From NCBI GenBank assembly GCA_947628665.1, contig CANRAU010000011.1, positions 1-64,000 on the forward strand: 64,000 nucleotides of DNA. The letters run 5' to 3'. A model generated the notes under the pieces. It had not been told where the DNA came from. It did not search any database and worked only from the letters and a program-made list of their open reading frames with translations. Below, one piece after another: positions 27,631 to 62,921 of this stretch. A program made the translations under genes and the position numbers. This DNA comes from an uncultured Clostridia bacterium (GTDB lineage: Bacteria > Bacillota > Clostridia > Oscillospirales > Acutalibacteraceae). Each line of letters begins with the position of its first letter. Within the stretch, counting starts at the first letter, position 1.

Positions 27631-27850
27631 TTTCGCCCGCCTTTTTCAAAAGGCGGCGGGGTTGAGGGGCAGCGCCCTCATCGCAGCCCGCAGGCTGCGA
27701 AATTTTTGTTCCAAAAGAGCGCAGGAGGGGCGAAAAACAGTCCAGTGGACTGTTTTTCGGTGGGGATTCTCGCCTGTCGGCTCGGTCGGTGCTTTTGCCT
27801 TCGGCAGAGGTGTCCACAGGACACCCGCACCCCTCGCCGGGGGTTCCCCA
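27631..27850. repeat. Multi-hairpin intergenic repeat island
   Basis: About 220 bases packed with separate palindromes: 27637-27656 (9-bp arms), 27663-27680 (6 bp), 27681-27700 (8 bp), 27731-27759 (14-bp arms, one central base), 27796-27806 and 27809-27825 (7-bp arms). None fits a protein-coding gene or a known riboswitch that I can recognise. The segment 27768-27833 recurs inside tnpV at 62594-62659, which shows it belongs to a dispersed repeat family. Together with the flanking hairpins it fills the 500-base gap from 27536 to 28034. Confidence 0.75.
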
Positions 27851-62480: not shown

Positions 62481-62921
62481 ATGGAACAGTACATTTACAA
62501 CGAGAAAAACGGTCTTTGGTATAAACTGCATAATGATTACTATCTCCCGTGCCTCAAGCTACCAGAAGATGAACAGCGCCCTATCGGGATATGGGGGTGC
62601 GGGTGTCCGGTGGACACCTCTGCCGAAGGCAGAAGCACCGACCGAGCCGGCAGGCGAGATCGGCGACATCTGCGATATATCCGAGAACACAGGATAGCTC
62701 TTTATACCGAGCTTCTGACAAGTGGCAGGCTGAACGCATACCTTGCCGATCTGAACGAGGAAGCCGAGGCTATGCTTTTCCGGCTGGTAAAGGAACTTGC
62801 CGAAAAAGAGGGCGTGACGGAAAAGCTCAAAGCCGAGGACGGTATGAAGTGGGTGCAGGCTATGAACAATATCCGCAACCGAGCCGCAGAGGTCGTTTAC
62901 AACGACTTGATTTACAACTGA
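62481..62921 (+). CDS. tnpV: TnpV-like mobile-element protein carrying an in-frame repeat insertion
   Basis: A 146-residue protein. The start (MEQYIYNEKNGLWYKLHNDY) and the rest (HLRYIREHRIALYTELLTSG, later GVTEKLKAEDGMKWVQAMNN) match the small TnpV proteins carried by clostridial transposons, which are usually about 120 residues. Between PIGIWG and RRHLRYI lies an extra stretch, CGCPVDTSAEGRSTDRAGRR, encoded by a 66-bp copy of the intergenic repeat at 27.8 kb, kept in frame. Whether the enlarged protein works is unknown. ATG follows TTGGAGG at seven bases. Confidence 0.8.
   Translation: MEQYIYNEKNGLWYKLHNDYYLPCLKLPEDEQRPIGIWGCGCPVDTSAEGRSTDRAGRRDRRHLRYIREHRIALYTELLTSGRLNAYLADLNEEAEAMLFRLVKELAEKEGVTEKLKAEDGMKWVQAMNNIRNRAAEVVYNDLIYN
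62594..62659 (+). repeat. 66-bp dispersed repeat inside tnpV
   Basis: Matches the reverse complement of 27768-27833 at 63 of 66 bases (differences at 62609, 62632 and 62650). The hairpin arms GGTGTCC/GGACACC and TGCC/GGCA are unchanged; one difference falls in a hairpin loop. The unit stays open in the tnpV frame. Confidence 0.85.

Follow-up and report, generated by a model that had tools for sequence, protein, structure and literature searches.

Elements of the IS200/IS605 type insert without target duplication beside a short fixed motif, and they carry hairpins. Rickettsia palindromic elements (RPEs), about 150 bp long in one paper (PMC10969869), are described in passages of two as dispersed palindromes found inside genes and in noncoding DNA (PMC10969869, PMC3733652); mobile palindromes in protein genes are known from Rickettsia, and the same passages place REPs within open reading frames (ORFs) of several species. 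GTAG- and CGTC-tagged REPs, some of them inside ORFs, are tied to Y1 transposases in passages of PMC3733652 and PMC2817692. The mobile bypassing elements of Magnusiomyces mitochondria remain untranslated, according to parts of PMC6649704. Gut metagenomes have yielded thousands of candidate structured RNAs, as stated in passages of PMC8040213, and the motif described below may be present, unnamed, among them. The titles, abstract openings and passages of the open literature that we searched held no description of this motif, and literal strings of it were unmatched there.

A 66-base repeat, which we call E, splits a tnpV gene in frame in an uncultured bacterium of the Clostridia. We analyzed one stretch of 64,000 nucleotides (the window; loci elsewhere are given by our own handles, L and a number). 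The gene (62481..62921, plus strand; ATG at 62481, stop at 62919-62921) has 146 codons and a stop in the ORF list and matches Pfam TnpV (PF14198) in two stretches, with 136.6 bits against a cut-off of 27. E lies at 62594..62659 (plus strand), where the covariance model R1 scores 96.3 bits. The first-pass annotation had matched these bases to the reverse complement of an intergenic repeat, and the match was confirmed: the second copy (27768..27833, minus strand) agrees at 63 of 66 positions. This second copy is part of a composite repeat; the neighboring stretch (27674..27767, minus strand) matches at 100% a flank of 94 bases beside a further E copy, and E-less copies of it occur elsewhere in the genome. 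An in-frame insertion of about 21-22 codons had been proposed. The frame is indeed kept, and the size is corrected to a net insert of exactly 63 bp or 21 codons (62598..62660, plus strand; codons 40-60, CGCPVDTSAEGRSTDRAGRRD), not 66, because the preceding G's are already present in the empty site.

The tnpV gene in the window is open. In most of the tnpV homologues compared PIGxWG is joined directly to QRHLRY and the segment is absent, as the first-pass annotation had expected, and E itself is dispersed and lies largely outside recognizable genes. The window gene is no frameshifted remnant, and it stays open because the insert is 63 bp and free of stops. The nearest named relatives of the window gene come from uncultured Oscillospiraceae or Clostridia. 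A Pfam search of the same genome found three TnpV genes, all with E at the same place, and the two outside the window are broken. Outside the insert, dN was below dS in a lineage with E common to three relatives: dN/dS was 0.14/0.67 (L103 versus L109) and 0.09/0.19 (L103 versus L136), both from short sequences. Between the window gene and an empty relative (L101) it was 0.04/0.19 downstream of the insert; in the 30 codons upstream, dN was 0.24 and dS was saturated. AlphaFold2, run on 27 tnpV sequences, gave a best-model mean pLDDT of 78.8 (61-79 across five models) with values below 50 at residues 43-60, which is most of the insert; in the model, this low confidence fits a disordered linker of 21 residues. 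Two tnpV fragments (L149, L172) end inside E or at its border, a sign that rearrangements may also break at E.

E has a fold that is supported by covariation. From 90 distinct E sequences we made an alignment (A1) of 86 rows, leaving out three with odd 3' ends (L136, L173, L207) and a 55-mer (L192). RNAalifold, supplied with no structure, recovered four helices, in which P1 encloses P2 and P3, and P4 is a small separate hairpin with a GNNA loop. Across the alignment 98.2% of cells were paired and 13 of 20 pairs were altered on both sides. There were 103 double-changed cells versus 15.3 in shuffles, a number reached by 0 of 500 shuffles, and when the partners were slid by 1-3 columns only 34-50% of cells were paired. 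The common form has about 62 bases between the target bases, and copies vary in size because the length of the P3 hairpin varies, which is the main difference among variants. Folding the window copy under either RNA parameters (z -2.36) or DNA parameters (z -2.93) yields these same helices, so the data do not distinguish RNA from DNA as the working form. Selection on structure had been suggested from conserved hairpin arms and one difference in a loop. The two window copies differ at element positions 16, 39 and 57; two of these differences are in loops, but the one at position 39 leaves the 27768 copy with C/A where P3 otherwise has a C-G pair, so the hairpin arms of the two copies are not fully conserved. 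It is the covariation, rather than the single loop difference, that backs selection on structure. Inspection of A1 by eye raised the idea that the P2 loop pairs with an ACC in the linker; it was dropped since the loop is variable while the linker is nearly invariant. Rfam 15 gave no matches over the window at the gathering score, and permissive searches with two loci gave matches only far below gathering scores.

E is a dispersed repeat family in Clostridia and in phages. The genome of the window (2.0 Mb, 35 contigs) has 33 matches to the 66-mer at an E-value of at most 0.001 (best 9.9e-29), including one other copy that is 100% identical (C10:49192-49257), which is far beyond chance. The same genome also holds 70-base variants. 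Head-to-tail units with 63-bp spacing run to a contig end at G000:C33:5797-6164 (L037), in an array that may be longer. We found E in at least 19 of 39 genomes of the genus, and in the family in at least 54 of 300 genomes and at least 39 of 135 genera. In a draw across the phylum there were two genomes of 398, the window's own and one with a short form (G556). E was also present in records of Oribacterium and [Clostridium] aminophilum, in two Ruminococcus phages (87.9% match), and in 25 stretches of viral contigs found by pattern scans, two of which (L192, L199) are short or partial forms. A search of plasmids gave no match. In G556, which belongs to another family of the class, a paired short relative of E sits in tRNA-Pro-like fragments beside an intact tRNA-Pro gene (L350-L353).

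Comparison of empty and filled sites revealed clean insertions. In this subfamily the empty tnpV site has the sequence TGGGG-N-CAGCGG or a near variant. The spacing from TGGGG to the next homologous codon is one base in empty L101 and 64 bases in the window gene, L102, L103, L107, L109, L136 and L039. The composite intergenic repeat has 63 matches to its 94-base part in the same genome (the stretch at 27674-27767 and L208-L214 are examples). We read seven E-free and seven E-bearing copies of those found by the 94-base query, so that the two kinds were about equally many; from GGCGAGGG to TCCC there is one base in the seven E-free copies and there are 64 in six E-bearing ones, and this +63 arises at a noncoding site. 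Among coding sites the plainest comparison comes from a phage cytosine methyltransferase (PF00145) that is empty in L246 and filled in L245, with proteins 88% identical and a net insert of +63. Across sites, the net insert was +63 in tnpV, in a phage protein (L200) and in the composite repeat, and +63 or +66 in the methyltransferase. The 66-base form gave +63 in both the methyltransferase and the composite repeat, whereas the 70-base form gave +66 in the methyltransferase (L182, L191, L197) and +67 in a composite copy (L030, the only one measured), as a filter for frame at coding sites would predict. For these comparisons we used the best 80 of 554 methyltransferase relatives, the best 80 of 101 tnpV relatives from the contig scan and, at the L200 site, the empty homologue L190, leaving out eight of nine relatives (L325 is L200 itself). 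There was no target duplication at the empty and filled sites compared in tnpV, the composite repeat, the methyltransferase and L200, and a MITE of a DDE transposon was rejected for this reason.

The segment has turned over repeatedly at one nucleotide of tnpV. We made a protein tree of 65 tnpV rows from which poorly filled columns were dropped, so that the insert was excluded, and ten stop-containing rows were left out. On this tree the six filled genes that are intact imply three changes, all of them forced by the starred branches. Filled genes stand next to empty ones: the window gene beside L101 (its nearest relative in the tree, 82% identical excluding the insert), L107 beside L075, and L102 among L108 and L127. 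Broken filled copies entered a DNA tree only; with 80 rows, 11 of them filled, it needs eight changes, at least six of them forced. Because the filled genes stand in separate branches, E was gained or lost repeatedly at this nucleotide. The counts are compatible with gain and loss alike, and either way the segment turns over at one site. The open filled genes represent few independent lineages, as the three forced changes indicate. One could instead suppose a single old insertion into tnpV that was inherited and lost several times; L103, L109 and L136 do share one insertion, and the three changes could be one gain and two losses. We consider this quite improbable: one-change trees made up 0 of 200 bootstrap trees, the inserts are near the current repeat consensus although their flanks have diverged, and in a distant clade (L155/L156, with L155 among the filled rows of the DNA tree) the homologous TGGGG is occupied, out of frame, by a shorter element that is related to E but distinct from it. 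Repeated precise loss would, in itself, amount to mobility.

E is present in frame and in the sense orientation in five gene families, including tnpV. In four of these families (tnpV, the methyltransferase, L200 and a RAYT-like gene) the comparison took in homologues that lack E. The methyltransferase is filled at two sites, the first in L184/L245, L191, L197 and L182 and the second in L182 and L206. L182 is a fragment that scores below the Pfam cut-off (16.2 versus 22 bits), yet it aligns with the others. A glyoxalase domain (PF00903, 55.3 bits) spans the insert in Oribacterium sp. P6A1 (L168), and the same site is filled in [Clostridium] aminophilum KH1P1 (L171), where the open frame is short. 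The phage protein L200 has no Pfam match. In the RAYT-like Y1_Tnp gene L222 E is read in a different frame, and relatives lack the segment. Of 86 candidates for open frames across E, 19, together with the L168 ORF, were taken to Pfam and 67 were left out. Six of these 20 ORFs were above the curated cut-off (L103, L168, L184, L191, L206, L222), L182 was below it, and 13 were unmatched; seven antisense ORFs among the 20 had no match. Counted frame by frame over all six, 66 to 86 of the 86 aligned copies are free of stops, versus 59% in shuffles that keep base composition only. On six viral contigs (L183, L185, L190, L194, L201, L204) E lies in a leader just upstream of phage genes, and L186 has a similar leader stretch without E at that place. 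A deposited "hypothetical protein" crosses E antisense in L186 and L187 (2407-2622; PV036433.1, PV036441.1); the lack of stops in the repeat may have led to a spurious gene call here. E accounts for a recurring peptide that is able to mislead gene annotation.

The in-frame copies look like survivors of insertion that is blind to frame. The first-pass annotation had asked whether copies in coding regions always share one frame. Where the insert begins, tnpV, the methyltransferase, the glyoxalase and L200 agree in frame, but the RAYT-like gene differs, and other insertions shift the frame of their host gene. Frame-losing insertions were found in tnpV (L038, L141, L146, L155/L156) and in a second RAYT-like gene (L372). 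Judging from the open frames, the insert is probably translated and would be nearly neutral for the proteins that carry it. If E were instead removed from the RNA or skipped by the ribosome, the protein would never include it; the stable, conserved hairpins within genes, in the sense orientation in every case found, are consistent with such removal, and passages on the Magnusiomyces elements (PMC6649704) provide a precedent. However, open genes have a net insert of 63 or 66 from element forms four bases apart in length, and the frame-shifting copies are in broken genes. Since there would otherwise be no need for multiples of three in open genes, we think that removal or skipping is very unlikely. 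Misassembly of short reads at a repeat might also be suspected, because many source assemblies are metagenomic and E is repetitive, but each coding copy has both flanks from the same gene and in order, unrelated assemblies have E at the same site, and a gene site is filled in the strains P6A1 and KH1P1; the chance of an artifact seems negligible.

E is found next to G-rich sequences and often inside other repeats. At 130 distinct sites, the bases preceding TGCGGG are mostly (G/A)GGG, and the base following GCGAGA is C at 85, A at 39 and T at 6. GTAGGG or CCCTAC was nearby on either strand at 22 of 130 sites versus 3 of 706 control windows (p 5e-16, with up to six, non-independent, controls per site). 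In the two RAYT-like genes (L222, L372) E comes directly after GTAGGGG, where 12 distinct E-less relatives have an in-frame GTAGGG and a palindrome. These 12 genes (L361, L364, L366, L367, L368, L370, L371, L373-L377) encode an IVGDGVPDVP-like peptide there, and GTAG REPs thus seem to sit within the coding sequence of RAYT-like transposases themselves. Because E often travels within other repeats, its site preference could be due in part to recombination between repeats. Carried further, E would not move by itself at all: recombination and gene conversion among REPs and composite repeats would spread it, as would the transfer of entire filled tnpV genes, with G-rich microhomology as the guide. 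The many copies within one composite repeat, possibly multiplied along with it, agree with this, as do the 22 sites in GTAG palindromes and the tandem 63-bp units in C33. We regard it as unlikely, although less so than the other alternatives, since unrelated single-copy genes (the methyltransferase at two sites, the glyoxalase and L200) carry E without composite flanks, empty and filled methyltransferase sites are nearly identical (L246, L245), and several events are needed on the tnpV tree.

Based on these comparisons, we believe that E is a non-autonomous mobile palindrome of Clostridia and phages, that its insertion after GG(G) duplicates no target bases, and that proteins tolerate it as a disordered linker. 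We give this reading a probability of roughly three in four, and mobility would then be the cause of the pattern of empty and filled sites. Single-stranded E, as RNA or DNA, would fold into P1-P4 and enter just 3' of GG or GGG, leaving no target duplication, with GTAG-tagged palindromes, the composite intergenic repeat and the TGGGG of tnpV as preferred sites. In the window, the stop-free net insert of 63 bp would leave tnpV open and yield a TnpV with a disordered linker of 21 residues; insertions of the wrong length would break the host gene. Against this reading, the junctions vary by about one base, unlike those of a strictly precise transposase. A tentative first guess for the mobilizing enzyme is a HUH (Y1) transposase that uses single-stranded hairpins as its substrate. 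The search for an enzyme was negative: E flanks none of 16 Y1_Tnp loci (no R1 match at an E-value of 1 or less), and these loci yielded no autonomous relative with E-like ends. Y1_Tnp was present in 10 of 10 genomes of the genus with at least nine listed E matches versus 13 of the remaining 29 (p 0.002; the cut was set post hoc), and in 14 of 19 genomes with any E among the matches listed versus 9 of 20 (p 0.11), an association that is suggestive only. It is conceivable, if doubtful, that E belongs to a class of site-preferring, coding-neutral elements that are shaped for coding sequence and repeatedly write new peptide into proteins of Clostridia and their phages. The traits that would suit it to coding sequence are a common form that adds 63 bp or 21 codons, freedom from stops in most frames of both strands, a GG(G) that often completes a glycine codon, and returns to one tnpV nucleotide and to two methyltransferase sites.

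E is a real, structured palindrome that is apparently mobile and apparently tolerated by proteins. With clean empty and filled sites, a covarying fold and recurrent events at one nucleotide, it looks like a separate family in Clostridia and phages, through which it can be tested how tiny elements move and how often peptides are added to working proteins. Like elements of the IS200/IS605 type and their internally deleted derivatives, E combines duplication-free insertion near a short motif with hairpins. It shares with the Magnusiomyces elements the presence of palindromes inside protein genes but differs in that the frame is kept at open sites. GTAG- and CGTC-tagged REPs with their RAYT are small palindromes as well, and E often nests in GTAG palindromes. 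E is larger, however, and we rejected its assignment to the GTAG REP/RAYT system because it has no GTAG or CGTC tag of its own (GTAG is absent from its foot in the aligned copies, whose 5' ends are G-rich) and does not flank the Y1 transposase genes at those 16 loci; its presence inside two RAYT-like genes is insertion, not flanking. The first-pass annotation had likened the locus to the palindromic elements of Rickettsia, and for the way of working the analogy appears apt. RPEs and E are both dispersed palindromes, noncoding in some places and in frame within unrelated genes in others, where they add a peptide. E is in another phylum, is shorter, has its own four-helix fold and a G-rich target, and is present in phages; the likeness drawn here concerns the way of working.
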